Notes under the pieces: generated by a model
The model's database searches: none
What the model saw: the letters and a program-made list of their open reading frames with translations, nothing else
What the model was told of the DNA's origin: nothing
Position numbers and translations under genes: made by a program
Shown: positions 19,035 through 55,804 of the stretch, piece by piece
Numbering within the stretch: position 1 is the first letter of the stretch
How the letters are laid out: every line of letters begins with the position of its first letter
NCBI RefSeq assembly: GCF_008298035.1
Contig: NZ_CP042910.1
Span: 3,673,001 to 3,737,000, forward strand
DNA from: Gimesia maris
GTDB taxonomy: Bacteria > Planctomycetota > Planctomycetia > Planctomycetales > Planctomycetaceae
Length of the DNA: 64,000 bases
Reading direction: 5' to 3'

Positions 19035-19109
19035 GTTTTACTGTAGCGTCTCCAGCGCCATTTAGACCGAGTCTATTTGATTGAGAGCCGCTACGGTTAA
19101 ATGTGATGC
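19035..19109 (+). repeat. Dispersed intergenic inverted repeat, copy 1
   Basis: Core of about 75 bp. It begins GTTTTACTGTAGCGTCTCC, has CCATTTAGACCGAGT in the middle and ends GGTTAAATGTGATGC. The ends form an imperfect inverted repeat (AGCGTC region against the right-hand GCTAC/GACGCT equivalents, and TTTTA against TTAAA). It lies between two minus-strand genes. Confidence 0.85.
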
Positions 19110-19201
19110 ACTGTAGAGAGCTTCCGTGCCTGACTCCATTGTTTTCGATTTAATAAGCAAAGGAAAGTGTTCGATTTGGTTTTTTAGGCGATCCCGCAAA
19201 A

Positions 19202-20095
19202 TTATTCAGAGGAGCGGTTTGTGTCTTTCTGCAGTGTATTCTCTCTAATAAAGGTCACAACCTGTTCGGGATGCGGATGCGTGAAGTGGTGACCCTTTGA
19301 TTTTTCCGTACCAGTTTTGACCGAAATGATTTTGAAATTATTGTGTCGAAACTTATCCGGGACACGGCTGAACATTAATCGCGTGTTTTCGGCTGGCGGC
19401 ACAACCTGGTCATTTTCCGAGATGATGTGCAGGACAGGAATTCCGGCCGCGGCGATAAGCTTAATACGGTCAACTGGATTGTCTTTGTACTCGAGGGCTT
19501 CTGCTTCCGTCATTTTGTAGGCTTTCAGACATGCCTGCCAACTGGATTCGGAGCCGGCACTGGTTCCTTTCCCGCCTGGCCAGCTTTTAAAATCGCAGAC
19601 AGGAGTGTCTGCGTAGATACAACTGACTTTTTCCGGATTCGCGAGTGCCCAGTTATAAATGAACAATCCGCCGCGACTGACTCCTTCCAGAGCGACCTTC
19701 TTCTGAAATCCGTGTTGTTTGGTCAGTTCTTCATAGAATTTGTTTCCGTATGAAATTGCCTGGGGGGAGCCGAACAGATTGGCGACATCAAGGTAGGCTA
19801 TGTGAAAGCCCTGTTTGAGCAGTTCGAGATCCATCTCGTAGTGGAAGTCAGGAAACCGGGCACGCCAGACCCAGGGTTTCCCTGGAGCGACTTTTGGGGG
19901 GATGACCACATAACACTTGCGGTCTTCGATCTGAAAATGATTTCTTTGAAAGCCATGCCAGGTATCCTGTCTGCCTGACCACTCAGATTTCACTTCCGGA
20001 TTTGTGGAGGCAAACGCTTCAAATGTCGGTTGACATAAATGCATTCCAATAAAGGAGATGAAAAAAACACGAAAAAAAGAAAACTGGTATTTCAT
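19202..20095 (-). CDS. Secreted alpha/beta hydrolase
   Basis: This encodes 297 residues with a signal peptide (about 1-30). The alpha/beta-hydrolase fold is shown by the nucleophile elbow GVSRGG (Ser140), an Asp in ISENDQVVPP and a His in the KGHHFTHPHP segment near the C-terminus. A PWVWRARFPDFHYE region and DTPVCDFKSWPGGKG are characteristic of a bacterial subfamily often found near carbohydrate esterases. The likely activity is an esterase on a carbohydrate-linked ester; this is inference from the subfamily. It stands alone on the minus strand with a repeat copy just downstream. Confidence 0.75.
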   Translation of the reverse strand: MKYQFSFFRVFFISFIGMHLCQPTFEAFASTNPEVKSEWSGRQDTWHGFQRNHFQIEDRKCYVVIPPKVAPGKPWVWRARFPDFHYEMDLELLKQGFHIAYLDVANLFGSPQAISYGNKFYEELTKQHGFQKKVALEGVSRGGLFIYNWALANPEKVSCIYADTPVCDFKSWPGGKGTSAGSESSWQACLKAYKMTEAEALEYKDNPVDRIKLIAAAGIPVLHIISENDQVVPPAENTRLMFSRVPDKFRHNNFKIISVKTGTEKSKGHHFTHPHPEQVVTFIRENTLQKDTNRSSE

Positions 20096-20437
20096 TTGAT
20101 GATTCTTTCGTCGCCTGAAGACAGATTGTGAGTACGTTTGCTTTATCTGCTGGTAAAAAGGAGGTTACGTGCTTTGCGTCACTGACTATGTGCTGGTCAG
20201 TCTGTTCGAACAACTAGCAGGTCATTCTGATTTTAGCAATTTTGAGTTCATTTGCACAATGAGAGCCCTGTCCCAACTGCAGTCACTGACTGCGGAACGG
20301 CATTTCTGACATATAGTTTAAGAACTTATCATTAAAACAAAATATATTCTGAAGATCACAAACCAGAGTGGGAGCTGTTTCTGCTTCCGCGGAGTGATTT
20401 CATCAGATACAACTATTTGTTAAATACGGACTCAGTT
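20096..20437. other. Divergent intergenic region with palindrome
   Basis: This gap separates a minus-strand hydrolase gene and a plus-strand regulator, so it should hold both promoters. A near-perfect palindrome GCAGTCA-C-TGACTGC lies at 20279-20293 and could be an operator. The 20325-20370 segment is AT-rich (includes AAAATATATT), as expected near a promoter. No gene is seen. Confidence 0.35.
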
Positions 20438-21367
20438 ATGTCACTTATTCCTGCTACACATACAACAGAAACATTGACCAGGCGGTTTTCAGATCCGGTT
20501 ACTAATTCTGTGATTGATGTATTCAAATATTTTGTCGGCACGACAGCCGAGCTGGAAAAGGTTGTCGAAGTCGATGAAGCACCGCGCTTTGACAGGAGTT
20601 CAGCAATTGAAGTAAATGGTCCCGGCAAAGGGATCGTGGTGGTAAATCTCCCTCGTGAACTGGTTTCGCGTGCTGTGTCTGTGCTGATTGATGAAGAACT
20701 GGCAGACGATGAACACGTCCTGACCGATTTTGCGTGTGAGCTATCAAATATGATTGCCGGCCAGGCTAAAAAAGCGGTTGATCATATGGGATTCCAGCTC
20801 GGCCACCCCACTGTCATTGAAACGGAACAGATTGATACACTCTATCCGCCGGAAGCTGGTTCCCGCTGCGGACTCTTTCAGACGGGGATCGGTCCCCTTG
20901 CCGTCTATTTTGGCTTTGTAGGACAGTTGGGCGAGATTATTGATTTCGAACACGAAATGACAGACAGGAAACGTCTGATTGTCATCGATCAGGACGAAAT
21001 GAACCGTGCTTTATTCAAAGGTCTGCTGCACGAACGTTATAAAGTCGAAACCGCGTCTTCGATTGAAGAAGCGTTTATTGACGCCGCCTTGAATTCTCCC
21101 GACCTGATTTTACTCGACCTGGATGGTGCTGATGGAAATCATGCGGAATCCGTCAAATACATCAAAGAGTCTCCCCTCACTCGGGGTGTGGAAGTGCTGG
21201 TGATGACGTCAAACCGCTCCACTACTGCAATTATCCAGGCTTTTAATCATGGAGCCAGTGACTATATTCTGAAATCTGACTTCACAAAGCAGATTCTGAT
21301 TGGCAAAATTGAACGGGCGTTTGGAAGAACCCCGGTTGTCAAAGAAGCCGTTTCCGCTATAGATTAA
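20438..21367 (+). CDS. CheX-like phosphatase domain fused to a response-regulator receiver domain
   Basis: This encodes 309 residues from ATG 20438 (GGA 8 nt upstream; a TTG at 20417 is also possible). The N-terminal half (about 15-170) is CheX/CheC-type. It has an E-x-x-N signature (Glu101, Asn104 in ACELSNMIAG), the catalytic pair used by CheX to dephosphorylate CheY. The C-terminal half (about 178-295) is a receiver domain with the acidic IDQDE pocket, phosphoacceptor Asp227 in LILLDLD, Thr257 and Lys279 in ILKSD. A phosphatase joined to a receiver suggests self-limiting signalling or a non-motility output. No kinase or chemotaxis gene is nearby. A strong terminator follows the stop. Confidence 0.82.
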   Translation: MSLIPATHTTETLTRRFSDPVTNSVIDVFKYFVGTTAELEKVVEVDEAPRFDRSSAIEVNGPGKGIVVVNLPRELVSRAVSVLIDEELADDEHVLTDFACELSNMIAGQAKKAVDHMGFQLGHPTVIETEQIDTLYPPEAGSRCGLFQTGIGPLAVYFGFVGQLGEIIDFEHEMTDRKRLIVIDQDEMNRALFKGLLHERYKVETASSIEEAFIDAALNSPDLILLDLDGADGNHAESVKYIKESPLTRGVEVLVMTSNRSTTAIIQAFNHGASDYILKSDFTKQILIGKIERAFGRTPVVKEAVSAID

Positions 21368-21395
21368 GCGAAACATCTCTGGTCGTTCTCGTATC

Positions 21396-21429
21396 AGCCC
21401 CGGTTTGATGACTGGGGCTTTTTATTTTT
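21396..21429 (+). terminator. Rho-independent terminator
   Basis: AGCCCC (21396-21401) pairs with GGGGCT (21414-21419), followed by a T-rich tail (TTTTTATTTTT). It lies 29 nt after the stop of the CheX-receiver gene. Confidence 0.85.
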
Positions 21430-21431
21430 GA

Positions 21432-21508
21432 GCGTTTCACATTTGACGATAGCGTCTGTCGGACTAATTTACCTGGCCCACCTGATCCTGGAGACGCGAC
21501 AGTAAAAC
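21432..21508 (-). repeat. Dispersed intergenic inverted repeat, copy 2
   Basis: Same family as copy 1, in reverse orientation. Read on the minus strand it begins GTTTTACTGTCGCGTCTCC and ends CGTCAAATGTGAAACGC. It starts immediately after the terminator of the CheX-receiver gene, and the next gene begins 37 bp later. Confidence 0.85.
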
Positions 21509-21544
21509 CGGGCACCGTTTAGTTTCCATGGGAGGGAGTTTACA

Positions 21545-22291
21545 TTGAATCTGGAAGGCAAAGTGGCAGTCATTACGGGCTCAGCGGTACGAATCGGCCG
21601 CGCGATGGCGCTGACATTGGCAGATGCCGGGGTGGATGTCTGTATTCATTATCACCTTTCACAAGCGGCGGCAGAGCAGACATGCAATGAGATCCGTGAG
21701 CGGGGACGTAATGCGACTCGTGTTTCAGCGAATCTCTCGGATCCCGAGACTGCCGCGGCTGTCATTTTTGAAGCGGCGATGACCGAGTTCGGCAAAGTTG
21801 ACATTCTGATCAACAACGCCTCTGTCTTTGAAAATAAAAGTCTTACAGATACCACCGAGGCCGACTGGGATTCCCATCTGGACATCAACCTGAAGTCTCC
21901 TTTTTTTCTCTGCCAGCGGTTTGCAAAACTACTCCCGCCGAGGCAGACCGGTCAGATTGTGAATATTGTGGACTGGCGGGCACAACGGGCCGGGAAAGAA
22001 CATCTGGCCTACCGGATCTCTAAAGCGGGTCTGGTTACGCTCACGGAATGTCTGGCGCTGGAGCTGGCACCTGCGATCCAGGTCAATGCCATCGCCCCGG
22101 GAGCCATTCTACCCCCACCAGGAGAAGACCTGTCGTACCTGGAACAGCGGGCGCAGAAGGTACCTCTGAAGCGAGCGGGAAGCCCTGCTGAAATCTGCAA
22201 CACCCTGCTTTACCTGTTACGGTCTGATTTTGTGACAGGTGAAGTGTTGACGGTTGCCGGTGGAGAACAGCTCACAGGCGGTCTGGGATGA
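21545..22291 (+). CDS. SDR-family pteridine reductase-like enzyme (FolM/PTR1 type)
   Basis: This encodes 248 residues starting at TTG 21545, with GGAGGGAG about 7 nt upstream. It has a Rossmann NADPH site (TGSAVRIGR, residues 11-19), the NNAS motif (90-93) and a Tyr156-x3-Lys160 catalytic pair. The usual SDR serine is replaced by Asp143 in NIVDWRAQ, the Asp-Tyr-Lys arrangement known from PTR1/FolM pteridine reductases. The VNAIAPGAILPP segment is also typical. It would reduce dihydropterins or dihydrofolate in the cytosol. folB and folK lie about 1.5 kb downstream, beyond one opposing gene, which supports a folate or pterin role. A general SDR of other specificity remains possible. Confidence 0.75.
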   Translation: MNLEGKVAVITGSAVRIGRAMALTLADAGVDVCIHYHLSQAAAEQTCNEIRERGRNATRVSANLSDPETAAAVIFEAAMTEFGKVDILINNASVFENKSLTDTTEADWDSHLDINLKSPFFLCQRFAKLLPPRQTGQIVNIVDWRAQRAGKEHLAYRISKAGLVTLTECLALELAPAIQVNAIAPGAILPPPGEDLSYLEQRAQKVPLKRAGSPAEICNTLLYLLRSDFVTGEVLTVAGGEQLTGGLG

Positions 22292-22313
22292 TTTCCACCG
22301 ATTTGGAATCAGA

Positions 22314-23639
22314 TCATGAGGAATGAGCCTTCAGCACAGCCTGCTTCAGGATCTGCATTGTATTCTGTTGCCGCTTCTCGATCGACTGCATCACTTCTTG
22401 CAGCTTGTTGTCTGCCTGGGATTTTTCGTTGTAAATCTGAATGACCCGCTCAGCAATCTGCTGTTCGTTGACTTCATCAATTTCGAATGTCCAGTCTTTT
22501 AAACCGATATCGTACCACATTTGCCCTTTGATCGTATCGGTGGGCTGTCTGACATACAGCCCGGGGGTACCAAAAGCACAGGCGATGATGGGAGAATGGC
22601 ATTCCATGCTCACCACAGCAGCGGCATCGCGATACAAAGAACCGGCTTCATCAGGCAGCCAGTATTCATCGTGGGCCACGACTTTGGATTTGACATCCGC
22701 AGGCAGCGGATCAATGACCAGGGGGTTTATAATTTCTGTCTGATAGGTCATTTCGGGACAGACGACTGCTTTCTGACCGCTGGTCCGGACCCATTCAATA
22801 ATGGCCGCCCGCAGTTTGGCATGATCCTGCTCCTGGTATTGCTTGTTGACCGATTCCACTTCCGCAATTTTTTCTTTGGTCCAGCGGCTGGATTTGTGGA
22901 TTTTGTGGTAAGGTGTATAGCGTAACCGTGGGACAGCACATAAATAGTTGCCCGGTTCCAGCTGATGTTTCTGTTGAAAAGCGGATGCCTTTTTGTCATC
23001 GGTCAGGTCAATCGCAAAGGTCGCGTCAGGGGCAAAATCCTGATGTGCTGACGTCACCTTGGCATCTTTGAGGTTCTTCAGTGAATGTGTTTCACGGGTG
23101 AAAATGAAATCGGCTCCCGAGAGCAGTTCATGCAGCTCGGGATTGATCTCGGAGACAGTGACACCGTAAATGCCATACGGTTTACCGGTCTGCTGTTTCC
23201 AGAATGCCAGTTCCCGCCGTGAGACCACACTGGGGCCTGAGCCATGCAGAAAGAAATCAGCCTTTTCAAATGCCTGTTGTAACTCCCGGGAATCCAGCTT
23301 CCCGTTCCGGTTCAGACGTCCTTTAACAATTTTCAGTTTAGGAAAACGTTTTTTAAGCATCGGTTCCACGCCGCGATCGACACTGTTGGGCCAGAGAATG
23401 ATTTCAAATTCGGGCGCATACACTTCCAGAAGTTTTAAAATGCCGGGAGAGTGTCCGATATCACCGATATTAACGGTTTGCCAGCCTGATCTGAGTAAAA
23501 TTACCGGCGGGTTCTGAGAGGACTGTGAGGGAGCTGCCAGTGAGGATGTCAGATGCAGTTGTCCGACAGCAGCGAGCCCCATTGATTGAAGCAGGGTCTG
23601 TTTCAGCCAGTGACGTCTTGTAACGGGAGTGCGGTTCAT
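22314..23639 (-). CDS. Polysaccharide pyruvyl transferase family protein (Tat-exported)
   Basis: This encodes 441 residues. TRRHWLKQTLLQSMGLAA is a twin-arginine-type signal, which is unusual because most pyruvyl transferases are cytosolic. The body has SGWQTVNIGDIGHSPGILKL (the NxGD element of the family), HGSGPSVVSRRELAFW, TRETHSLKNLK, AVPRLRYTPYH and VSMECHSPIIACAFGTPGL near the C-terminus, matching PF04230. Such enzymes transfer pyruvate from PEP to sugars; export would raise the question of donor supply, so this member may have another role. It is convergent with the SDR gene (22 bp gap). Confidence 0.75.
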   Translation of the reverse strand: MNRTPVTRRHWLKQTLLQSMGLAAVGQLHLTSSLAAPSQSSQNPPVILLRSGWQTVNIGDIGHSPGILKLLEVYAPEFEIILWPNSVDRGVEPMLKKRFPKLKIVKGRLNRNGKLDSRELQQAFEKADFFLHGSGPSVVSRRELAFWKQQTGKPYGIYGVTVSEINPELHELLSGADFIFTRETHSLKNLKDAKVTSAHQDFAPDATFAIDLTDDKKASAFQQKHQLEPGNYLCAVPRLRYTPYHKIHKSSRWTKEKIAEVESVNKQYQEQDHAKLRAAIIEWVRTSGQKAVVCPEMTYQTEIINPLVIDPLPADVKSKVVAHDEYWLPDEAGSLYRDAAAVVSMECHSPIIACAFGTPGLYVRQPTDTIKGQMWYDIGLKDWTFEIDEVNEQQIAERVIQIYNEKSQADNKLQEVMQSIEKRQQNTMQILKQAVLKAHSS

Positions 23640-23818
23640 ATTGTTGTTCTTTCTATTCGGGAACCCCTTTGTCGTGGCGAATGCAGATAATCAATGTGTT
23701 CCTGCCAGAAGTCAGGAATTCTTCGCTGTGCAATCGGAGGGATTAAGACTATAGTAATTCTATCATTGTAGCTGTTCTTAAACTTAAGTCTGCCCCATTT
23801 TAAACTACGCTTAATAAT

Positions 23819-24190
23819 ATGCCTGATCAAATTCATATTTCCGACTTGTTGTTACGCACGATCATCGGCATCAACGATGAAGAGCGAGAGAAAAAACAGG
23901 ATGTGCTGATTAATATCAACATGCTCGTCGACTTGAAAACAGCGGGCCGGTCTGATGATATTAACGATGCCGTGAATTATCGAACGATCACCAAGGAGAT
24001 CATTGAGCTGGTAGAAAACTCTCATTTTCAACTGGTGGAAAAAATGGCGGATGAGGTGGCGCGGATCTGTTTGCGGGATCACAAAGTTCAGTCAGTTCAG
24101 GTGCAGATAGAAAAACCCGGTGCCCTGCGTTTTGCCCGCTCCGTCGGAGTGACAGTTGTCAGAACGCGTGAGGATGTTTCAGGAGTCTGA
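23819..24190 (+). CDS. folB: Dihydroneopterin aldolase FolB
   Basis: This encodes 123 residues from ATG 23819. It is the folate pathway enzyme converting 7,8-dihydroneopterin to 6-hydroxymethyl-dihydropterin and glycolaldehyde. Family features are DLLLRTIIGINDEEREKKQ at the N-terminus (substrate-binding), the DDINDAVNYRTI segment carrying the active-site Tyr, FQLVEKMADEVARICL, and the conserved Lys in IEKPGALRFARSVGV near the C-terminus. Length is normal for the family. No clear ribosome site precedes the start. folK begins 1 nt after the stop, so the two are co-transcribed. Confidence 0.9.
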   Translation: MPDQIHISDLLLRTIIGINDEEREKKQDVLININMLVDLKTAGRSDDINDAVNYRTITKEIIELVENSHFQLVEKMADEVARICLRDHKVQSVQVQIEKPGALRFARSVGVTVVRTREDVSGV

Positions 24191-24191
24191 A

Positions 24192-24695
24192 ATGAATCAG
24201 GTTTATCTGGCATTAGGCAGTAATATTCGTGCAGAGTTCCATCTTCCCCAGGCAGTCCGGCTGCTGACAAGCTGTGGAGCAATCATCCGGAAATCTTCTG
24301 TCTGGCAGAGTCAACCCGTGGGAGATACCAATCAGGCCGATTTTTTAAATGCGGCTGTTTTGTTAGAAACCGCCTGTGATGCTCAGCAGATTTGGGATGA
24401 AGTGATCCCGGGGATTGAGGCCCGGCTGCTGCGCGTGCGAGACCCCCTGAATAAAAATGGACCGCGTACGATCGATATCGATCTGGTACTTTTTAATGAA
24501 GAGCAGTTGCAGGTAGCTCATCGCCGTGTTCCTGACCCGGACATCAGCAGCCGCATTTTCCTGGCGGTGCCACTGGCGGAACTGGCTCCGGGGTATTGTG
24601 TCCCCGGTGTGGGAAAGCCCCTGTCAGAGATCGCAGCAGAACTTCAGACAGACCATGGATCTGTATTCATTCGCAGGGACGATGTGCGTCTCTAA
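24192..24695 (+). CDS. folK: HPPK, 2-amino-4-hydroxy-6-hydroxymethyldihydropteridine diphosphokinase
   Basis: This encodes 167 residues. ATG 24192 has AGGAG 6 nt upstream inside the end of folB; an upstream in-frame start would add 12 unlikely residues. The enzyme transfers pyrophosphate from ATP to 6-hydroxymethyl-dihydropterin, the step after FolB. Signature elements are YLALGSNI at the N-terminus, FLNAAVLLET, and the family motif GPRTIDIDLVLFN with the Mg-binding Asp pair. HRRVPDPDISSRIFLAVPLAELAP is the usual C-terminal segment. Its 3' end overlaps the opposing small gene by 4 nt. Confidence 0.93.
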   Translation: MNQVYLALGSNIRAEFHLPQAVRLLTSCGAIIRKSSVWQSQPVGDTNQADFLNAAVLLETACDAQQIWDEVIPGIEARLLRVRDPLNKNGPRTIDIDLVLFNEEQLQVAHRRVPDPDISSRIFLAVPLAELAPGYCVPGVGKPLSEIAAELQTDHGSVFIRRDDVRL

Positions 24696-24973
24696 TCTTC
24701 CAGCAGCGATAATGCATCGCCGGGCAGACAGGCCATTTTGAAGAACAGCCCCTGTTCTTCACACTGAGATTTATAAGCTGCTGGCATTTTCTGTTCAGTT
24801 TCGTCATCCCATTCGAGGATATAGGTTCGTTCAGAAACCTTCTTACCACGCACTTCGACAACCATACCTGTCCAGCCTGCACAGCAGATTTCTGGAAATT
24901 CAGGGACACAGATCCCGTCTTTCACCTGGATGTTTGAGCCTGCCTTGATTGTTGACGATGCCTTTTTACCCAT
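24692..24973 (-). CDS. Small conserved-looking protein, SH3/KOW-like, unknown function
   Basis: This encodes 93 residues from ATG 24973. It is soluble with no signal peptide. A VKDGICVPEFPEICCAGWTG segment is followed by MVVEVRGKKV, an EWDDETEQKMP element and YKSQCEEQGLFFKMACLPGD. The alternation of short strands and a Gly-Trp-x-Gly turn resembles SH3-like beta-barrel proteins. I do not recognise a named family. It is convergent with folK, with a 4-bp overlap of the ends. Confidence 0.6.
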   Translation of the reverse strand: MGKKASSTIKAGSNIQVKDGICVPEFPEICCAGWTGMVVEVRGKKVSERTYILEWDDETEQKMPAAYKSQCEEQGLFFKMACLPGDALSLLED

Positions 24974-25386
24974 AATTTATTTCTGCCAAAACATATCTTG
25001 TTTTATTGATTTCATGTAACCAGCTGGCACGACTGCAGACAGTGTATCGCTAATGCAACATGAATTTCAATTGAAGGGCCTTGTTATCAGTCTATCTGGC
25101 ACAAGAAATTAACAAATATCACGATCAACAGCACGAAAAATGCTGTTTATTATCTACAGTGGCCTGTTGGATCAAGTTGCATTATGGGGACCTGATGCAT
25201 TTTTTCAACAGGAAATTAATTCTGAATAATTTGCAGAAAAGACCTGCAGCAGACAAATTCTGAGCTATTGTTTTATTGGACGATACCAGCCCCTCTTGAA
25301 CAGTTCTCCCGGCCGACTGCGCTTCAGCAGATTTAAACAGATATGACCATGGAGGGACATTCGTAACTATTTTCAAGAGAAAAAAA
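24974..25386. other. Intergenic region upstream of the Tad-like genes
   Basis: This gap is AT-rich and divergent, so it should carry promoters for the small gene (leftward) and the pseudopilin genes (rightward). A weak open frame at 25081-25263 (60 codons, TTG start) has no ribosome site and no recognisable feature, and I treat it as chance. Confidence 0.4.
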
Positions 25387-25914
25387 ATGTTTAAGCGGCA
25401 CAGCCGAGTGGCATTGAATCAAAAACAGAAAGCCAGACGTTCCGGCCTGGCCCTGGTGGAACTGGCATTCGTGACTCCAGTATTTCTTGTGTTTGTGTAT
25501 GCCATTTTTGAATTCGGCTATGCCTACATGATTTCTAATATTATCCAGGAAGCGACACAGGAAGGTGCCAAGCTGGGGCGGTGTGAAGAAGTGACAACCG
25601 CGCAGGTGGAAACCAAAGTCAAAGCCCTGCTGAATACCGTCTTCGATGCCGATCTGGCTGAAGTGATGGTCAAAGATGCCAGTCAGTTTGACACCCCGGG
25701 CGTCGATGTATCGCAAATTAATTACAAGACACTGCCCGATCTCGAATTAGCCAATGCGCAGAAAGCGCAGTTATTTCTGGTACGCGTTGAAGTGCCGTAC
25801 AAAGATGTTCGATTACTGAGCTCGTTTTTCGTGGATCCGGTCGAAGCCGCAGAGGCCGCGGCCAAAGAAGACAGCATGGTTTTATCCGGCCATTCCGTCA
25901 GACGTCACGAGTAA
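25387..25914 (+). CDS. TadE-like pseudopilin
   Basis: This encodes 175 residues. A basic N-terminus is followed by the TadE signature SGLALVELAFVTPVFLVFVY at about residues 21-40, with a single transmembrane helix. The rest is extracytoplasmic. TadE proteins are pseudopilins processed by a TadV-type peptidase and help assemble Flp/Tad pili. An AAGAGA ribosome site lies about 8 nt upstream. It is the first of three related genes in a row (57 bp to the next). No tadA, tadB, tadC or prepilin peptidase gene is present in the window. Confidence 0.85.
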   Translation: MFKRHSRVALNQKQKARRSGLALVELAFVTPVFLVFVYAIFEFGYAYMISNIIQEATQEGAKLGRCEEVTTAQVETKVKALLNTVFDADLAEVMVKDASQFDTPGVDVSQINYKTLPDLELANAQKAQLFLVRVEVPYKDVRLLSSFFVDPVEAAEAAAKEDSMVLSGHSVRRHE

Positions 25915-25971
25915 TCAGACAGAAAATAATATTACTTATTTCGGCAAGCAACCGCCTGCAGGAGCACACTT

Positions 25972-26544
25972 ATGCAAGTCATGCGAAAACAGAGTATGCA
26001 GTCAGTCATTTCAACGGAGAACCGTCGCGGCGTTGCGGCGGTTGAATTCGCATTAATTGCGCCCGTCTTCCTGGCGTTACTGCTGGGAATGGTGGCGGTA
26101 CGCAAAGCTGTTCACACTACGACGGTCATGGACGCAGCCCTTGCCCAGGCAGGTCGCCTGGCTTCGATGGATGCCGGTTTAAAACTCCCCGCTGGCAAGA
26201 CTCTGAATGACAAAATTATTCTGGATGTCCGCAATTTCCTGCGTGCCTCCGGTGTCGAAAATGATGAAACCAATCTGATTATCTCCATCACGCATGCGGA
26301 AGATGAAAACGGGGTGCCTTTGGATCCCATGCCGAATCCTCCCAGCACGGGAACAGATTTTGATTTAAGTAATTCCGACAACCGAAACCGGTTATTTCGA
26401 ATAGGGATTGAGATTCCTGAAGGCGCTTCGAATTCCAAGTTGTCCGATATTATGAACCTGGAAGGTTCAATGGCCAAACCAATGAGTGGCGATCCTGTCT
26501 GGGATCTGATTATGAATAACGGTACGACTAAGATCGTCAACTAG
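25972..26544 (+). CDS. TadE/TadG-like pseudopilin
   Basis: This encodes 190 residues from ATG 25972. The segment RRGVAAVEFALIAPVFLALL at about residues 19-38 is the TadE-type cleavage and membrane-insertion region. The exported remainder is mostly polar and has no recognised domain. It follows the first TadE-like gene by 57 bp and is the second of three. The gap to the next gene contains one full and one partial copy of the dispersed repeat, so the third gene may have separate expression. Confidence 0.82.
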   Translation: MQVMRKQSMQSVISTENRRGVAAVEFALIAPVFLALLLGMVAVRKAVHTTTVMDAALAQAGRLASMDAGLKLPAGKTLNDKIILDVRNFLRASGVENDETNLIISITHAEDENGVPLDPMPNPPSTGTDFDLSNSDNRNRLFRIGIEIPEGASNSKLSDIMNLEGSMAKPMSGDPVWDLIMNNGTTKIVN

Positions 26545-26554
26545 ACTGCGTCCC

Positions 26555-26630
26555 GTTTTACTGTAGCGTCTCCAGGACCATTAGGGCCGAGTAGAATTGA
26601 TCGGGAGATGATTTGGTTAAATGTGATGCG
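26555..26630 (+). repeat. Dispersed intergenic inverted repeat, copy 3
   Basis: Core of 76 bp, beginning GTTTTACTGTAGCGTCTCC and then AGGACCATTAGGGCCGAGTA, ending TTGGTTAAATGTGATGCG. It starts 11 bp after the stop of the second TadE-like gene, in the same orientation as the flanking genes. Confidence 0.88.
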
Positions 26631-26646
26631 AGCTGGAAACAAAAAA

Positions 26647-26680
26647 TTTACTTTAGTGTCTGTGGCTCTATTTCAGAGTA
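26647..26680 (+). repeat. Degenerate partial copy of the dispersed repeat
   Basis: TTTACTTTAGTGTC followed by TGTGGCTCTATTTCAGAGTA resembles the left half of the family (TTTACTGTAGCGTC and CCATTTAGACCGAGTA). It follows copy 3 by 16 bp and ends just before the ribosome site of the next gene. The right half is absent. Confidence 0.5.
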
Positions 26681-26695
26681 CAAGAGGGGGAAAAC

Positions 26696-28492: not shown

Positions 28493-28549
28493 GTGAACGA
28501 ATTTGTTATGATTCGTGCCTGCTTGGGTTGATTTTCTACCTGAGTGAGA

Positions 28550-28580
28550 GGGGTGACTGGGAACGGTCACCCCTTTTTTT
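28550..28580 (+). terminator. Rho-independent terminator after the Tad-like cluster
   Basis: GGGGTGAC (28550-28557) and GTCACCCC (28566-28573) form a perfect 8-bp stem, followed by seven T residues. It closes the three-gene Tad-like cluster. Confidence 0.93.
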
Positions 28581-40229: not shown

Positions 40230-40258
40230 CAGGCAGGAAATTCAAGGACGGGCGTCTT

Positions 40259-41302: not shown

Positions 41303-41310
41303 ATTTCTAG

Positions 41311-41388
41311 AGCGTATCACATTTAACCAGAGCGTCGTTCAATCTAATCTACTCGTCTCAAATGGCCTTGGAGACGCTACAGTAAAAC
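41311..41388 (-). repeat. Dispersed intergenic inverted repeat, copy 4
   Basis: Reverse orientation. Read on the minus strand it begins GTTTTACTGTAGCGTCTCCA, has GGCCATTTGAGACGAGTAGA in the middle and ends GACGCTCTGGTTAAATGTGA. It is the copy with the clearest inverted ends. It lies between the prenyltransferase-fold gene and moxR. Confidence 0.9.
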
Positions 41389-41447
41389 TGGACTCAGTCT
41401 AACGAATATAACCGGTCGTTTCAGACTGGTAGAACAGGGAGTGAATC

Positions 41448-43470: not shown

Positions 43471-43495
43471 CAGAAAGAGAAATTCGAAAGACACT

Positions 43496-45637: not shown

Positions 45638-45653
45638 ACAGAAAGAAGTGACT

Positions 45654-48068: not shown

Positions 48069-48103
48069 CAACTGGATTAACGATTCGAAGGAGTTTCTGA
48101 TAG

Positions 48104-50290
48104 ATGTCACCCACGCCACGATCTGATGAATTCGAGGCGCTGCAGCAGACGATTTCCGGGAAGCTGGAACGCGTCGGGGTCGCTTTACGCAGACATACTC
48201 TGCTGGAAGCGACGGTGCGGATTCTCGCGGCTCTGCTGGGACTGGCAAGTCTGTCTTTATTGTTTGACTGGTGGCTGGGGCTGAGCCTGGTAGCTCGTAT
48301 GTTGTATCTACTGGTTTGCGTGGCGGTGATGGGTTATCTGATCTACCGGTATGTTTATCTGCCTTTGCGGGTTTCGTTGTCCCCCATTGAAATTGCGAAT
48401 CTGATCGACCGTTCCCAAAAAGTGATTCCTCAACAGGCACTGGCGCCGCGTGTTGCCAGTGTGCTGCAGTTGCCTGGTCATCTGACACAGTCTGAACAGT
48501 CTCAGCCGATGATTGAACAGGCGGTACAGTCGAATTATCAGTCGCTCAGTCAGTATTCCTTTCAGGAAGTGATTGATTCCCGGCATACGCGAAATTGCCT
48601 GTTGATTTTGCTGGCGGTGATTCTGATTCCCGTGGGATTTGGAATCGCAGCGCCGGAAGCGGGCCGGTTATGGAGTCAGCGGTGGTTTGCAGGGTCGAAC
48701 GCGCCCTGGCCGCGCAATACGCGTTTGACGGTCGTGGGGCTCAAGGATGGACAGTGGATCATTCCCCGCGGGGAGTCGGCAGCATTACAGGTGGTCGTCG
48801 AAGATCAGGAAGAACCGACGGAAAGTGTGTGGCTGTACCTGACAGGAGAAGAGGGAAACAGTGAAACGATAACAATGAACCGTTTTCAGGAGGGGGATTT
48901 TCGATACGAAGTGCCCCCGCTGCAACTGCCGGTTCAAGCTTATGCCTGGGGCGGAGATGGTGAATCGGAGCCTTTTGAGATTGTGCCCATTGATCGTCCC
49001 CGCATTACCGACTTGAAGCTGCAGGCGACGCATCCCCGGCTCTCAGAACCGTTTGTGTCACATTTCTCAGCCAGCGAGGGGAATGTGAGATTATTGCCGC
49101 AATCGGAGGTGCTGCTGGAATTGACGACAAATGTCAAAGTCCGGGAGATTGACGTTGATTCTGAGGACGTTTCGTTACAATGGAAGAGTACAGATGGTAA
49201 GCATTTTCAGGCAGCATGGACGCATGAGAAACCTGTCAACTTTCGGTTGACGTTACACTCGGCAGAGCATGAGATTCATTCGCATCCACGACCGGTTTCG
49301 ATCGGTGTGCAGCCGGATCGTGGTCCTCGATTGAGTTTCCGGTATTCAGGAGTTCGACAGCGGATTACAGCAGACGCCACGATCCCCTTCTCGATCATCG
49401 CCCGCGACGACTTTGGTATCAGGTGGGTGGGCATGGATTCGAATCTGCCACTGGCTGAAACAGAAACGAAAAAGAGTCAGAATGTGACGGAAGCGGCTCT
49501 GGATCAGGTGTTTGGAAACCCGGAAGCAGAAAAGAAAAAACAGGCAGTTACCAAAAAAGATTATCCCGTCTACGGACCTGCGGATCCTGCGGTGGAGAAT
49601 GTGATAGAAGACGAAAAACGTGTGTCGATCTCAGAATTGAAATTAAGTCCCGGTGCGGTAATCACGTTTCAAAGTCATGCGGAGGATAACTGTTATACCG
49701 GGGTGCAGCAGACGAGTTCCCGTCAACTGGTGTTTCGCGTTGTCAAACCGGAAGAACTGTTTCGGGAAATACTGTTAAGGCAACAGCAGTTGCGTTCGCG
49801 ATTAAGGAAAGCCCGGGATCAGGCGGAACAATTGAGAGATCAACTGAAGCTGGCACAAAGTCTGGATCAGGCTGCCGACTGGATGCGACAGCATCAACTG
49901 GTCAGACGGGAAACAGGACAGGTCAGCCATGCGTTGAACGCTTCGGTTGAGGAAATGAAGCTGAACCAACTCGGAGGAGAAGAGACCTATCAGTTGATTT
50001 CACAGACAGTGCTCAAACCCCTGGAAGATCTGCATGATCGTGAGATGGAACTACAGCGACAGTCGCTGGAAACGTTACGCGGAGACTCCCCTGACCCGAT
50101 GGAACAGATCCATACGCGTCAGGACGAGATTTTGAAATCCATGGATCAGATATTGAATAACATGGCACAGTGGGACAGTTTTATTGATGTGGTTAACCAG
50201 TTGAATGCCGTGATTAAACTGGAACAGCTGGTGAAAGAAAAAACAGAAGAACTGAAGAAAAAACAGGTCAATTCGATCTTCGATAATTGA
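48104..50290 (+). CDS. DUF4175-like membrane protein
   Basis: This encodes 728 residues. A GAAGGAG ribosome site precedes the ATG. The N-terminal helical part has three transmembrane segments (about 35-55, 59-85 and 165-185). A long extracytoplasmic beta-rich region (about 200-450) follows, then a charged coiled coil (about 560-728; LRQQQLRSRLRKARDQAEQL). The arrangement resembles DUF4175 proteins found beside MoxR/DUF58 modules. It may act as a structural scaffold in the cell envelope. The next gene starts 45 bp after its stop. Confidence 0.65.
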   Translation: MSPTPRSDEFEALQQTISGKLERVGVALRRHTLLEATVRILAALLGLASLSLLFDWWLGLSLVARMLYLLVCVAVMGYLIYRYVYLPLRVSLSPIEIANLIDRSQKVIPQQALAPRVASVLQLPGHLTQSEQSQPMIEQAVQSNYQSLSQYSFQEVIDSRHTRNCLLILLAVILIPVGFGIAAPEAGRLWSQRWFAGSNAPWPRNTRLTVVGLKDGQWIIPRGESAALQVVVEDQEEPTESVWLYLTGEEGNSETITMNRFQEGDFRYEVPPLQLPVQAYAWGGDGESEPFEIVPIDRPRITDLKLQATHPRLSEPFVSHFSASEGNVRLLPQSEVLLELTTNVKVREIDVDSEDVSLQWKSTDGKHFQAAWTHEKPVNFRLTLHSAEHEIHSHPRPVSIGVQPDRGPRLSFRYSGVRQRITADATIPFSIIARDDFGIRWVGMDSNLPLAETETKKSQNVTEAALDQVFGNPEAEKKKQAVTKKDYPVYGPADPAVENVIEDEKRVSISELKLSPGAVITFQSHAEDNCYTGVQQTSSRQLVFRVVKPEELFREILLRQQQLRSRLRKARDQAEQLRDQLKLAQSLDQAADWMRQHQLVRRETGQVSHALNASVEEMKLNQLGGEETYQLISQTVLKPLEDLHDREMELQRQSLETLRGDSPDPMEQIHTRQDEILKSMDQILNNMAQWDSFIDVVNQLNAVIKLEQLVKEKTEELKKKQVNSIFDN

Positions 50291-50335
50291 AGTCAGAAAC
50301 ATATTTCAAGGCCCCCTGTTATGGAGGTGAGGGAC

Positions 50336-51775
50336 ATGCGGAGCAGAAAAAAAATAATGGCGTCGGGACTGGTGTTGATGTTCGTCATCTCCCAGATGAT
50401 GGGCGCGGTATCTGCTGCTGACAAAGCAGCCGCTGATGACGGTAAAAAAATTGCGCCCCAAACGCAGATTCAGTTTGAGCAGGACAAAGCGAAAGCGCAT
50501 ATGCAGGAACTGGAAGAGCGGATGTTTCGGCTCTCCAAGCTGATTCGCGAATCGCAGCCGGACGATGCGGCGCGGTTGCTGCTGGGACTGCGAAAAGCCC
50601 GCGAACAGCTGATCCTGGATCGCATGGGTGAAGCTTCCAAAATGCTGGATGATCTCAAACTGGATAAAGCCAGCCAGGAACAGAAAGAGATCCTGGTTCT
50701 GCTGGAAGAACTCAAAAAACTGTTGCTGACCGCCGACATCGGGCTGGAACTGAAACTGGAGCAGTTGCGTAAGCTGATTGATTCGCGTGAGACGTTGAAT
50801 AAATTACTGAAGAAGGAAGAGCTGCAACTCTCGAATACACTGGAGCAGCAGAAAAAAAGTGGCAATAAAAAAGATTTGAAAGCGCTGGAAACCAGCGAGC
50901 AGCGCAATCAGAAGTCCGCAGAAAATCTGGAACAGATGCTGCGTGAATACGGGCCGGCCTCGCAGAGTATCTGTAAGTCACTGTCAGGTGCAGGAAAATG
51001 TATGGGCGGCGCCTGCAAGAAGCTGGGAGCTTCTCAACCCAAGCCTGCGTCTGAAGAACAGAAAAAGGCGATTGAACAGTTGAGCTCGGCACAGCAGGAT
51101 ACGAAAAAGCTGGAAGACAAACTGCGGAAAGAAGTCGAATCACTGGTACGTCAGCGGGTGATGGATCAGCTGCAGGATATGATTGCGCAGCAGAAACAGA
51201 TTCGCGAAGTCACAACCAAGCTGCAGGATCGTGTGGCCCAGAAACAGAAACAGGCTTTGGCGGCTGTACGCAGACTGGCGACTTCGGAGGAAAAAATTAT
51301 CAGCCTCTGTAGTGAGTCAATCGAACTATGTGAACTGACGCAGTTCAGCCTGGTCCTGCCCGTGGCGTTGGGCGCTGTGCGGGAACAGATGGAACTGGTC
51401 GATGAAGGTCTGTTGCTGGCGCAAGCCGACAAAGCAATGATTGATGATCAGAAGCAGATTGAGACCGATCTGCAGGCATTGCTGGATGCGATGATTGATG
51501 CCTCCCGACCGTCCAATAAAAATGGAGGGGGCCAGTGTAAAGGCTGTAAAGGGAATCGCAACAAACTGCTGGCAGAAGTCAAAATGTTACGCTGGATGCA
51601 GCAGTCCGTTCATACGCGTACTGATCAGCTGGATCGACAGATTGAGAAGAAAAAAATCACGGAAGCGTCACGTCAGGAACGGATTGATCTGCTTTCGGTC
51701 CGTCAGAAAGAAATTGATTTAATCACCGGACGATTACACAGTATGACCTGTCCCCATTGTCTGGCAGGAGAATAA
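50336..51775 (+). CDS. Exported coiled-coil protein with CxxC pairs
   Basis: This encodes 479 residues. ATG 50336 directly follows GGAGGTGAGGG, an unusually strong ribosome site; the ATG at 50321 is unlikely. A signal peptide (about 1-27, ending AVSAAD) is followed by an almost entirely coiled-coil protein rich in Glu, Lys, Gln and Leu. Near the C-terminus a CKGCKG motif is followed about 75 residues later by CPHC at the very end. These four cysteines could bind zinc as a split ribbon or form disulfides. An internal CMGGAC lies near residue 222. No enzyme motif. It is followed after 2 nt by the small partner gene. Confidence 0.75.
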   Translation: MRSRKKIMASGLVLMFVISQMMGAVSAADKAAADDGKKIAPQTQIQFEQDKAKAHMQELEERMFRLSKLIRESQPDDAARLLLGLRKAREQLILDRMGEASKMLDDLKLDKASQEQKEILVLLEELKKLLLTADIGLELKLEQLRKLIDSRETLNKLLKKEELQLSNTLEQQKKSGNKKDLKALETSEQRNQKSAENLEQMLREYGPASQSICKSLSGAGKCMGGACKKLGASQPKPASEEQKKAIEQLSSAQQDTKKLEDKLRKEVESLVRQRVMDQLQDMIAQQKQIREVTTKLQDRVAQKQKQALAAVRRLATSEEKIISLCSESIELCELTQFSLVLPVALGAVREQMELVDEGLLLAQADKAMIDDQKQIETDLQALLDAMIDASRPSNKNGGGQCKGCKGNRNKLLAEVKMLRWMQQSVHTRTDQLDRQIEKKKITEASRQERIDLLSVRQKEIDLITGRLHSMTCPHCLAGE

Positions 51776-51777
51776 TA

Positions 51778-52410
51778 ATGAAACGTACCCAATCCCATCA
51801 AACCCACTTGAGATTCCTGTTCTCATTGACGATTTGTGCCCCGCTGTTTTATACAGGCGGTCTGCAGAGTGCATTCGCAGATGCGGTCGAAGCGGCAAAG
51901 CCTGGGGCAAAACAGGTTAAAGCACCGCTAATCATTCCGCCGGAACCGAAAGACAATCTGTCGCAACTGAAGGACGATGCCTGGCTGAAGGATCCTTTTA
52001 AAAATATTCAGACCGATGTGAAGTCAGTCATTACTGATTTTGATAAAGGGCAGACGACACAGCCTGCGAAAACCACGCAGCCCCGCATTATCAGTCGACT
52101 GGATACGCTGGTGGAGATGCTGGAAAAATCGTGTAAAAAAGGGGGCGGCGCTGCGGGGGCCAACCCGACGCGTCCGGCGAATTCTTCCACGTTGGGGAAA
52201 GGTCCCGGCGGAGAGGGGGAACTGAAGGCCCCCGATAAAAAGGGACGCAACTGGGCAGACCTGACCCCGAAACAGCGGGAGAAGATTCTGCAGTCGCGTA
52301 CGGAAGGCTTTCCACCCGGCTATGAAGACATTCTGGCAGATTATTTTCGACGTCTGGCGCGAAATCAGGCAGTCGATAAAACAAAACCGACTTCCGAGAA
52401 ACAAGATTAA
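51778..52410 (+). CDS. Small exported protein of the MoxR/DUF4175 locus
   Basis: This encodes 210 residues from ATG 51778, with AGGAG 7 nt upstream and only 2 nt after the previous stop, so it is translationally coupled. A signal peptide (about 1-35) precedes a low-complexity Lys/Gly/Pro-rich middle. A short C-terminal helical motif follows (WADLTPKQREKILQ, then EGFPPGYEDILADYFRRLAR). That C-terminal motif is familiar from small proteins next to DUF4175-like genes in planctomycetes, but it has no known function. Confidence 0.7.
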   Translation: MKRTQSHQTHLRFLFSLTICAPLFYTGGLQSAFADAVEAAKPGAKQVKAPLIIPPEPKDNLSQLKDDAWLKDPFKNIQTDVKSVITDFDKGQTTQPAKTTQPRIISRLDTLVEMLEKSCKKGGGAAGANPTRPANSSTLGKGPGGEGELKAPDKKGRNWADLTPKQREKILQSRTEGFPPGYEDILADYFRRLARNQAVDKTKPTSEKQD

Positions 52411-52418
52411 AGACTCTG

Positions 52419-54251
52419 ATGCAAATGGTATTTCTTATGAAGAAGTGTAATTTGAGCGGCTTGTTGCTGGCGGTGCTGATCTGTGTGGCGGAACTGTTGA
52501 TCTGTCCGCTCGCCTCTGCCGATGAAGTGCTGCTCTATGATGGAAAAAAGGTCTCGGGTAAGATCCGGTCTGTCGATTCCAGCGTATTGAAGATCGAAGT
52601 CGGTAAAGACCTGCAGGAAATCAGCCTGTTTGATGTGACGTCTTACAAATTTCTGGAACCGGCGCTGCCTCAGAATGTGAGTCAGCTACTGATTGATGGG
52701 GAAAAGCCGAGTTATGCCGCGGGACCCCGTACTGCGAAAGTCAAACTTCGTAAAGGACTGCATCGCTTTACCCTGCCCTATTATCACTCGGTGGGACTGG
52801 CGAAGCTGGATATTCAGGTGTCAGGTCCGGGGATGAAAAAGGCGGAAGTACCCAAAGAGCAGTTGTTTCGCGTCAATACAGCAGTGCGCGAGATTCCCGC
52901 GATCGAATACAAGATCGATGAAAAGGGATATCGACTGCCTGTCAAGATTGAGAAACCGGAAAAATATATTGCGTACCGACTGATGGAATGGAGCCATCCT
53001 GTGAAGGTTAAATCGATGGCTGATCTGAAAGCGGTTCCGGTTAAAAAATATGGTGCAAGCCCGCGACTGGCTTTATTGAGCCGTCGCAGTGCCATCAATT
53101 TCGGAATTGTGTATGAAGGACTGATCCAGATTCCCCAGGACGGCGAATACACGTTTGCAGTGGAGACCGATAAAAACAGCAAGGCGAAACTCTACATCGG
53201 AGATTATCCCAGCGAACTCTATAAACAGGCGAAAAGAAAATTATCGTCCGGCTGGCAGGTGGCCTTTTCTCAAGCGGGAAAACTTTCGGGGACCTTAAAG
53301 GAATGGACCAGAACGGGCATCCATTTTCAGGTTCCCGCTGCTGAAAAAGAGATTGACCTGATATTAAAACCGGGAGCCGTACATGAACTCTGGAAGATTC
53401 AGGAAGACAAGAAACAAACAAAGACGGTAGACCGCAAAGGGGAATCGAAGATCGAAGATTCGGCTTATGTCACCACGCAGGATGGGAATATTCATCGCGT
53501 GTCAGGTGAAGTGGTGGGGATTAACGAACAGAGTCTTTTGTTTCAATACCAGGGACAGCAACGCGAAGTCAATCTGGACCGGGTTGTGGGACTGGTCCTG
53601 TGGAAGAATCGCGTGCAACCTGAGAGCAAACTGGCGTTGCAGAGCCTGATGACTCTGATCGGCAATACGCAGATTCCCGGCGTGGTCGAACTGAACCAGG
53701 GCGCAACCGCCAGCATTACCATGCCGTGGGGCGATTCGTTTTCCATCAATAAGGATTATCTGGAGTCTGTGAAAACGGTCAACGCCCGTTCGGTTTCGCT
53801 GGTGGAAATCCAGCCGGACAGTGTGACGCAGGTCCCCTTTTTCAATCAGCGGTATCCCTACCAGGTCAACAAGAGTCTGGCTGGCCAGCCTTTGAAGATC
53901 GGGACGCAGTCGTTCTCCAAAGGACTGTGTGTGCATGCCCGGACGGTGCTGGTTTATCAGCTGGGTAAAGAATTTGAACAATTCCAGACCACACCAGGCC
54001 TGCAGGCTGAAACGGGGAAACTGGGAAATGTCGCGGTCAAGGTCATGGCTGATGGCAAAACCCTGTTTGAAAAGCCAGAGTTTACCAGCGCCACGAAACT
54101 GGAATCACTCAGCCTGGATGTGACAGGCTGTGAGACTTTGACGCTGGTCGTTGATTTTGGAAAAGATCAGGATGTGGGAGATCGCTTTGTCTGGGGCGAT
54201 CCAAAACTGATCCGGGCGGTACCCAAAGAACTGGCGGCGAATCAGAAATAA
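52419..54251 (+). CDS. Exported NPCBM-domain protein with PA14-like region
   Basis: This encodes 610 residues from ATG 52419 (an ATG at 52437 is also possible). A signal peptide (about 15-35) leads into a short beta segment (LLYDGKKVSGKIRSVDSSVL). A PA14-like region (about 85-330) has FGIVYEGLIQIPQDGEYTFAVETD and AKLYIGDY. A second small beta domain (about 345-455) and a C-terminal NPCBM module (about 470-595; FSKGLCVHARTVLVYQLG, WGDPKLI) follow. PA14 and NPCBM are carbohydrate-binding folds, so the protein may bind cell-surface or environmental glycans. It begins 8 nt after the previous stop. Confidence 0.72.
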   Translation: MQMVFLMKKCNLSGLLLAVLICVAELLICPLASADEVLLYDGKKVSGKIRSVDSSVLKIEVGKDLQEISLFDVTSYKFLEPALPQNVSQLLIDGEKPSYAAGPRTAKVKLRKGLHRFTLPYYHSVGLAKLDIQVSGPGMKKAEVPKEQLFRVNTAVREIPAIEYKIDEKGYRLPVKIEKPEKYIAYRLMEWSHPVKVKSMADLKAVPVKKYGASPRLALLSRRSAINFGIVYEGLIQIPQDGEYTFAVETDKNSKAKLYIGDYPSELYKQAKRKLSSGWQVAFSQAGKLSGTLKEWTRTGIHFQVPAAEKEIDLILKPGAVHELWKIQEDKKQTKTVDRKGESKIEDSAYVTTQDGNIHRVSGEVVGINEQSLLFQYQGQQREVNLDRVVGLVLWKNRVQPESKLALQSLMTLIGNTQIPGVVELNQGATASITMPWGDSFSINKDYLESVKTVNARSVSLVEIQPDSVTQVPFFNQRYPYQVNKSLAGQPLKIGTQSFSKGLCVHARTVLVYQLGKEFEQFQTTPGLQAETGKLGNVAVKVMADGKTLFEKPEFTSATKLESLSLDVTGCETLTLVVDFGKDQDVGDRFVWGDPKLIRAVPKELAANQK

Positions 54252-54282
54252 TTGAAAACGAATTCCATTACAGCGATCAACC

Positions 54283-55713
54283 ATGAATCAGTATTTAAAA
54301 TTCAATCAGCATATTCAGTACACCTATGGATTGTCGAACGATCGCAGGCGGATGCGGGCTTTGACCGGTGCCATGATGGGGCTGCTCTGGCTTCTGTGCC
54401 CGTTGGGAAATGGCTGGGCTGGTGAACCTGAGGCTTCACCCTCGTCCAAACTGATCGTGAGAGATGTCAGTGTATTTCTGGTCTCGGCGCATGGTAAGAA
54501 GCTGAATGACACGGCTCTGTTTCGCTCCACGACCCCCGGTTATGTGCAGTCCCGCCGCTTGAGCGCCGATGCCAGTGAGAGCGACAAACCGGCGCCACTG
54601 GGATTGATCACCTTTGCAGGACCGGCAACCAAAGATATTGATGTGCTGCTGGAATTTCCCTCCGGGCGTTTTTTAGCGCATTGGCCTTCTGCACGAATTC
54701 AGTCGAAACGCATCTACTGGCGTTCACAGAATCTGCTTAAAGAGAGTCCGCTCAGCATGCAGTTGTCTGAATCCCACTGGCTGAGTCCGCTGCAAAAGGC
54801 GGATCGCCTGTATGTGAAAGGTATCGATAAATGTGATCGCTTTATTCTGTATGACGTGGAACTGAATCATAACCCGCGCATTACGATGAGCCATGCTGAG
54901 AATGGTTTTCAGGTGCAGAATGCGGACACATATCCCCTGAAAGATCTGACGATCATGCAGCCTGCCGGAGAGAAGGATCATTGGAAAGTCGCAGCTATCG
55001 AACAGGTGCCCGGGATAAAAAAAGAGAACAAGCAGCCTGAGGCAAAATCAGATCCACCAGAGAAAGCGAAATCCGTTGACCCTTTATCAGAAGAATCGCT
55101 GAACAAGAAAAAAAAAGAAGCCCAGGCCAAAGCGCTACAAGCTCTGGGTAAACAGTTACAGGCGGCAGGTGCGTTACCGAAACTGGCTGAATCGGCCACG
55201 AAACCAGCTGAGAAGAAAGCGACAGCAGCAGCGACTGCCTCTAAAGCACCTGCTGTTTTAGTGCCCTATATAGAATCTGCCGGGCTGTCACAGGCGGAGG
55301 CGCTGGAGATCTGGAGGAAACAGCTGGTCGATCTGGGGCTGGGCACACCAGAAGTTGAGCATGTCCTGCGTATTCTGGGTGAGCATGCCTTGCGAAGCGA
55401 TCAGGCAACCGTTGTGTACTGTCTTGACGAAAGTTATCTCGACAAAATATTGCCGCTGGAAATTACCCCGTTTCCCGATGTGGTGCGTCGCACCGGAATT
55501 GTCATCCTGCTGGATGCGGATCCGGCGTTGTTGAAACGCATTGATGGCCTGATTGCGCAGCTGGGAAATCAGAGTTGGGAAAAACGCGAAGCGGCTCAGA
55601 AGAAGCTGGAAGAGTATGGGAAAGCCGCACAGGCACAATTGCAGAAAGCGACCAGCAATAAAGATCTGGAAATCGTATTTCGCGCCGAACAGATCCTGGG
55701 AAAGATTAAATAG
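54283..55713 (+). CDS. Exported protein, last gene of the MoxR locus, unknown function
   Basis: This encodes up to 476 residues from ATG 54283; an internal ATG (codon 24, MRALTGAMMGLLWLLCP) may be the true start, since a signal peptide begins there. A beta-rich part (about 55-245) has no recognised motif. A charged low-complexity linker rich in Lys, Glu and Ala (about 250-325) and a helical C-terminal part follow. The last 50 residues (WEKREAAQKKLEEYGKAAQAQ) are HEAT/coiled-coil-like. Its stop is followed 11 bp later by a dispersed repeat copy, and the next gene is convergent, so it ends the transcription unit. Confidence 0.65.
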   Translation: MNQYLKFNQHIQYTYGLSNDRRRMRALTGAMMGLLWLLCPLGNGWAGEPEASPSSKLIVRDVSVFLVSAHGKKLNDTALFRSTTPGYVQSRRLSADASESDKPAPLGLITFAGPATKDIDVLLEFPSGRFLAHWPSARIQSKRIYWRSQNLLKESPLSMQLSESHWLSPLQKADRLYVKGIDKCDRFILYDVELNHNPRITMSHAENGFQVQNADTYPLKDLTIMQPAGEKDHWKVAAIEQVPGIKKENKQPEAKSDPPEKAKSVDPLSEESLNKKKKEAQAKALQALGKQLQAAGALPKLAESATKPAEKKATAAATASKAPAVLVPYIESAGLSQAEALEIWRKQLVDLGLGTPEVEHVLRILGEHALRSDQATVVYCLDESYLDKILPLEITPFPDVVRRTGIVILLDADPALLKRIDGLIAQLGNQSWEKREAAQKKLEEYGKAAQAQLQKATSNKDLEIVFRAEQILGKIK

Positions 55714-55723
55714 GCTGTACCCG

Positions 55724-55804
55724 GTTTTACTGCTGCGTCACCCGGACCATTTGGACAGGGTATCATATTAGATCGTCTCTGACGCTCTGGTTAAATGTGA
55801 CGTG
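55724..55804 (+). repeat. Dispersed intergenic inverted repeat, copy 5
   Basis: Core of 81 bp: GTTTTACTGCTGCGTCACCC, then GGACCATTTGGACAGGGTAT, ending GACGCTCTGGTTAAATGTGA. It lies between convergent genes and begins 11 bp after the last gene of the MoxR locus. It is the most diverged of the full copies. Confidence 0.87.

Follow-up and report, generated by a model that had tools for sequence, protein, structure and literature searches.

Five copies of a palindromic repeat in the window

The stretch of DNA of the marine planctomycete Gimesia maris analysed here (the window; 64,000 nucleotides, positions 3673001-3737000 of a single 7.82-Mb chromosome, labelled G000) carries five copies of a 95-bp repeat with inverted arms that is very probably a miniature inverted-repeat transposable element (MITE). 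An earlier note, made from the sequence alone, had listed five copies and a partial one; all five were recovered on the strands it gave and aligned over about 95 bp, but the ends it proposed were too narrow. Copy 1 (19022-19116, plus strand) is 95 bp long and was matched by the profile over 19023-19115 (model positions 2-94) with 88.6 bits; its left TA is mutated (TTCGACTG) and the syntenic site of the sister species, genome G014, lacks the element, the flank being somewhat diverged. Copy 2 (21427-21521, minus strand, 72.6 bits) corresponds to an empty G014 site, and copy 3 (26542-26636, plus strand, 85.5 bits) to a clean empty one. Copy 4 (41307-41401, minus strand) has the top score in the window, 91.7 bits, reads TTAG...CTCTAG and is also found at the matching G014 site. 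Copy 5 (55711-55810, plus strand, 65.7 bits) contains five extra internal bases at two places; G014 is without the element there, with a diverged right flank, which brings the copies missing from the sister species to four out of five. The first TAG of copy 3 doubles as the stop codon of an open reading frame (ORF) at 25972-26544, and that of copy 5 likewise terminates an ORF at 54283-55713. Profile search of the window revealed no copy beyond the five, apart from one weak opposite-strand echo of copy 3. The supposed degenerate left half at 26647-26680 turned out to be ordinary flank, since the profile has no match there and similar bases occur at the uninserted G014 site.

The element spans 95 bp from TAG to TAG, that is, a core of about 90 bp (GACTGTG...GCGCTC) plus the duplicated TA, and its copies range in length from 95 to 100 bp. 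The consensus derived from 46 copies is TAGACTGTGTCCAGTTTTACTGTAGCGTCTCCAGGGCCATTTGGACCGAGTATATTAGATTGAGAGACGCTATGGTTAAATGTGATGCGCTCTAG. Boundaries are sharp: in a conservation profile built from 56 left-anchored and 49 right-anchored rows, a few of which are chance or opposite-strand matches, values of about 1 bit or higher hold between TAGACTG and CTCTAG, with background level reached immediately beyond these ends. Divergence from the consensus in 64 near-full copies is lower in the arms (9.1-13.5%) than in the middle (17.1%), which fits the expectation if the ends are the part needed for movement. A 16-base left block, searched with at most two mismatches, gave 169 matches in the G000 genome, compared to 10 for a reversed control pattern, and 39 copies were detected in 1.024 Mb (E<1e-5), equivalent to some 300 in the whole genome if copies are evenly spread. 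The genome therefore contains roughly 170-300 copies, far more than the few that would have undermined the family proposed in the earlier note.

Insertion into TA and placement near gene ends

Genome G014 is about 90% identical to the window over a 2.2-kb stretch and is syntenic, in reversed orientation, so that insertion sites could be compared in both directions. Among the 39 copies in 1.024 Mb of G000, 14 corresponded to an empty site in G014, 11 were present in both genomes, 10 had an unalignable flank, 2 were unclear and 2 rearranged. Reciprocally, 18 of the 45 copies in 1.04 Mb of G014 faced an empty G000 site, 10 occurred in both, 16 were without alignable flank and 1 was unclear. We then considered the cleanest 9 of the 32 empty sites, with no more than 14 unaligned flank bases: six keep exactly 3 bases, the others 1, 4 and 5. 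Three bases in place of a 95-bp element imply a net gain of 92 bp. Copy 3 is the cleanest case, the empty G014 site reading GTCAACTAGAAAC and the filled site GTCAACTAGACTG...GAGCTGGAAAC. The look for target-site duplications that had been recommended earlier thus yielded both a duplication and the 92-bp net insertion.

Inspection of the bases surrounding the TA in 65 full copies showed C..G in 20 and T..G in 24, and insertion occurs mostly at (C/T)TAG. IS630 itself reportedly has a preference for CTAG, a finding attributed to Tenzen and Ohtsubo in 1991. This preferred target is scarce, as CTAG is strongly under-represented, with 267 occurrences in 1.024 Mb (G000:C1:3193001-4217000), element ends included. 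A 4-bp CTAG duplication was considered and rejected, because a TTAG target had acquired a CTAG right end. The data favour TA rather than TAG as the duplicated unit, mainly on account of right-end variation and of one site, G000 3888127, in which the target is TAA, the right end TAA and the left base G. Separately, G014 contains a tandem triplet (C1:5078040-5078318, L083) of three copies arranged head to tail with a period of 92, the units sharing their end bases, an arrangement expected from nested insertion at the terminal CTAG.

Using ORFs of at least 100 codons, chosen by length and uncurated, as genes, which cover 87% of the sequence, we found that 1 of the 39 G000 copies and 3 of the 45 G014 copies share more than 30 bp with a gene; when the minimum was set at 80 codons and the initial 224 and 240 kb were considered, 3 of 18 and 1 of 12 copies overlapped. 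In 16 of 65 full copies, a long open frame ends on the terminal TAG as its stop codon; this count includes copies common to both species and compares with 7.0 expected (P ~0.001, simulation). This expectation was calculated from non-coding sites with the same neighbouring bases, applying one ORF definition to copies and background; earlier counts had given 17 of 68 and, with stricter copies, 16 of 65 against 4.65 and then 5.99 expected. Both ends of the element begin with G, and an insertion that hits the TA within a TAA or TAG stop codon consequently restores TAG. The excess is moderate, about twofold, and may reflect tolerance near gene ends. In two other genomes, a decayed left part (L279:3171 in G012 and L280:3194 in G005) has its start precisely at the TAG stop codon of a long ORF that is the same in both, a landing apparently shared by descent.

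A candidate IS630-family partner

A complete 1027-bp insertion sequence (IS) of the IS630 family, with CTAG at both ends, is present in two other Gimesia genomes, G016 and G001. It contains two overlapping ORFs of 111 and 213 aa, whose overlap at a run of A suggests frameshifting, and which match HTH_Tnp_IS630/HTH_23, DDE_3 (1.8e-33) and the NF033545 IS630 transposase model (2.4e-42). Both end repeats of this IS match the right arm of the short element at 24-25 of 27 positions, and BLAST comparison of the right end with the IS termini showed 18/18 identical bases for one terminus (E 1e-6) and 19/20 for the other (E 2e-5). A transposase-bearing element of the kind that the earlier note had recommended looking for was in this way found, matching the repeat at one end.

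The 92-bp net insertion into (C/T)TAG, together with the right-end identity to an IS630-family IS, leads us to regard the element, with high confidence, as an IS630-type MITE, which numbers hundreds of copies and most likely depends on an IS630-family transposase for its movement. In agreement with such an assignment, it is short, has terminal inverted repeats, sharp ends and many copies, is polymorphic for insertion between relatives and duplicates a TA target with CTAG preferred; its resemblance to an autonomous IS is clear at the right end and weak at the left. According to this model, a transposase encoded elsewhere would bind both end arms in trans, excise the element and paste it into a TA, and copies would afterwards decay neutrally where they are harmless, mostly between genes and often exactly at stop codons. 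Of the three possibilities that had been put forward from the sequence (MITE, repetitive extragenic palindromic (REP) element or regulatory RNA), the first is upheld by the target duplication and the IS with a matching end, and the other two are not.

A search for IS630-type DDE_3 genes gave 0, 2 and 5 matches in G000, G014 and G011, respectively; two of the G011 loci begin with TAGAGCGCGTCACATTTTAGTCTAGCG, resembling the MITE right end reversed. Protein search of 17 Gimesia genomes identified five with a match to the IS transposase. The second IS ORF is intact in G016 and G001, truncated in G012, in G011 and in a second G001 copy, and reduced to a 30-residue remnant in G000. Genome G000 also carries a 79-bp IS end and, at C1:2649092-2649610 (L143:1501-2019), an internally deleted IS of about 519 bp with both end repeats, that is, a second and larger non-autonomous form. 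An IS5-type partner (DDE_Tnp_1_2) was sought in G000 without any match. A first look at loose MITE candidates, in which some genomes were drafts, counted 309 in G014, 215 in G000 and 212 in G011, compared to 29 in G016, 10 in G001 and 7 in G012, so that the copy-rich genomes differ from those in which an intact partner was detected. As a separate observation, in three species (L138, L140 and L141 from G011, G012 and G001) the IS is broken at the same base (~758) and is followed by another repeat, whose ORF presumably resembles an IS3-type orfA.

Several observations weigh against the IS630-type MITE assignment. No transposition event was seen. Two of the three copy-richest genomes, G000 and G014, revealed no intact transposase of the IS type, and the ends of the element were not found around the other DDE_3 ORF of G014 (255 aa, L132). 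The left arm shares no more than 16-18 of 27 positions with the IS ends, as counted by eye, and a search allowing eight substitutions missed the left arm in both complete IS; this difference is old, with left ends of the same type occurring in three genera. In addition, the middle block of the MITE has no match in the IS, and TA and TAG duplications are indistinguishable at most insertion sites.

A further reading, which we consider doubtful, is that of an old MITE lineage with two different, separately conserved ends, one of IS630 type and the other (TAGACTnnGTCCAGTTTTA) peculiar to the element and maintained across three genera, that spread in genomes where no intact partner was found and survives partly on stop codons. 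Hundreds of copies in such genomes would mean that a second transposase may be in use, or one borrowed in passing. It is quite unlikely that the MITE is moved mainly by some other transposase reading the left end, with IS630 as just a relative or as the source of the right end. The distinct left end, in Gimesia and in two other genera, and the two copy-rich genomes without a detected intact IS of the right-end type speak for this possibility, but no IS with a left-type end was seen, and the exact left pattern occurred in 12 of 397 genomes of the class, exclusively in the three genera g1, g51 and g52. Moreover, the few left-pattern loci outside Gimesia, as well as the two solitary left ends in G012 and G005, resemble whole or decayed MITEs. 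In 2 Mb of G000 and G014, five fragments resembling the left end were detected apart from the known copies.

Alternative origins, relatives and distribution

Since the arms are inverted repeats, the element might instead be a structured RNA (a regulatory hairpin, an mRNA stabiliser or a terminator) whose hairpin is under selection. The arms do pair along the whole length, in 87.7% of cells in 46 copies compared to 28.9-47.0% when slid against each other. In the same copies, two of five measures lay slightly above shuffles, namely the percentage paired, a value reached in 15 of 500 shuffles, and the covariation score, reached in 44 of 500; the consensus stem contains six G.U and zero A.C oppositions (uncorrected two-sided sign test, 1/32). 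Compensatory changes in the stem, however, did not exceed expectation: two-sided pair changes numbered 5 against a shuffled mean of 5.1 in the 46 copies; a set of 27 sequences (26 distinct) covering two genera had 2 against 3.3, and none of its measures rose above the shuffled mean. Of the single transitions affecting Watson-Crick stem pairs in 133 copies, 87 kept pairing and 86 broke it, and the five copies from the second genus oppose A to C at columns 7 and 89, positions that are mostly G-C elsewhere. RNAalifold predicted no long hairpin. The inverted-repeat arms described in the earlier note are genuine, but folding as a single RNA was better than shuffles for copy 1 only (z -4.6, compared to -1.3 to +0.06 for the remaining four). 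Orientation with respect to co-directional neighbours was the same in 24 cases and opposite in 20, and no Rfam family matched the window at gathering thresholds. We judge this explanation very improbable.

Being numerous, short and intergenic, the copies also recall a REP/REPIN-type repeat spread by a REP-associated tyrosine transposase (RAYT, Y1 type), and five Y1_Tnp matches over the cut-off exist in the G000 genome. Within 1.5 kb on each side, though, none of the five loci has a full copy, and no linked Y1 transposase flanked by the repeat was found among them; L033 has only half a copy (2353-2397, E 7e-8). The length, TA duplication, CTAG target and IS630-type end of the Gimesia element are not those of a REP family, and this origin is scarcely credible. 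The half copy of L033, a truncated left half, is situated about 0.5 kb from a RAYT-like gene of G000 (Y1_Tnp match at L033:1501-1866). Lastly, an integron attC site, whose GTTRRRY motif the right end resembles, was discarded because attC cassettes are clustered in a single orientation and the copies are dispersed over the chromosome on both strands (22/21 in 1 Mb of G000 and 19/29 in 1 Mb of G014).

The IS630-type MITE was also compared with known elements. The closest case is RUP of pneumococcus, a 107-bp element with about 108 intergenic copies, a TA target and ends like those of IS630-Spn1 (PMC2229807, PMC3049150); it is alike in size, intergenic location, target and IS630-type ends. RUP belongs to another organism and presumably differs in sequence; the Gimesia element is distinguished by a net insertion demonstrated against a sister species and by one end that is far from the IS end. 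ISY100, of the IS630 family and the Tc1-mariner superfamily, likewise duplicates a TA target (PMC2170065); with IS630/ISY100 the element shares this duplication and, in its likely partner, DDE_3, whereas it has about one tenth of the IS length and no transposase region. ERIC, Correia/NEMIS and other bacterial MITEs are also short, palindromic and intergenic, several with TA termini (PMC2229807). The Gimesia element, unlike ERIC and Correia/NEMIS, can be set beside an IS that matches it at one end, and no role at the RNA level was found. BOX elements of pneumococcus, which likewise supply stop codons to 36 coding sequences at the 3′ end, differ in being modular (boxA, boxB, boxC), and their ends have been compared with ISSpn2, not with an IS630-type IS (PMC3049150).

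A 2024 review of prokaryotic MITEs (PMC10969869) does not contain the words Planctomyc-, Gimesia or IS630, and searches of the literature on Gimesia or Planctomycetes with MITE, insertion sequence or IS630 gave no report of the element among the matches listed. That no named family shares the consensus, as had been stated beforehand, accordingly holds for Rfam and the literature searched. The element is an unnamed MITE of a well-known type, not a new kind of RNA or signal, and its mechanism involves nothing outside known transposon biology. Its recognition accounts for a repeat that annotation would otherwise leave as unknown, adds to a planctomycete genus a high-copy MITE of its own together with a likely partner IS, and provides a natural series of genomes, with and without the IS, in which to follow how bacterial MITEs outlive their transposase.

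We examined how far the element extends across genomes. A MITE match at E<=1e-3 was obtained in 17 Gimesia genomes and 4 others out of 170 genomes of the family, with at most five candidates scored per genome. A range restricted to the genus, suggested by a smaller set (the own genome and 16 of 16 Gimesia, 0 of 23 others), was therefore too narrow. Across the 17 Gimesia genomes, with and without the IS, loose candidate copies ranged from 7 to 309 per genome. IS-like DNA is wider, being detected in 58 of 297 genomes of the class with two candidates scored per genome. A 29-base piece of the element matched 18 stretches, of which 13 belong to Gimesia sp. SAT87 and the remaining 5 to two other planctomycete metagenome-assembled genomes, a count from which records of the own genome may be left out. 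Phage and plasmid collections searched with one copy as query gave no match, and spread by phages or plasmids is thus unsupported.

Outside Gimesia, genome G100, of another genus, contains at least five full-length copies that are 71-73% identical to the MITE and near-identical to each other; the idea that the IS ends of G100 had changed together with the right end of its MITE was not borne out by the sequences. Genome G099 has the left part, and the five G114 loci inspected and the G112 locus match at the right end only. Judged by eye, the G114 loci appear to be termini of a similar IS, and the G112 match looks like another short element. Also by eye, L281 ~2810-2920 (G112) and L278:3017-3088 (G099) are short elements with similar ends and other middles, which suggests the existence of several related MITE families.
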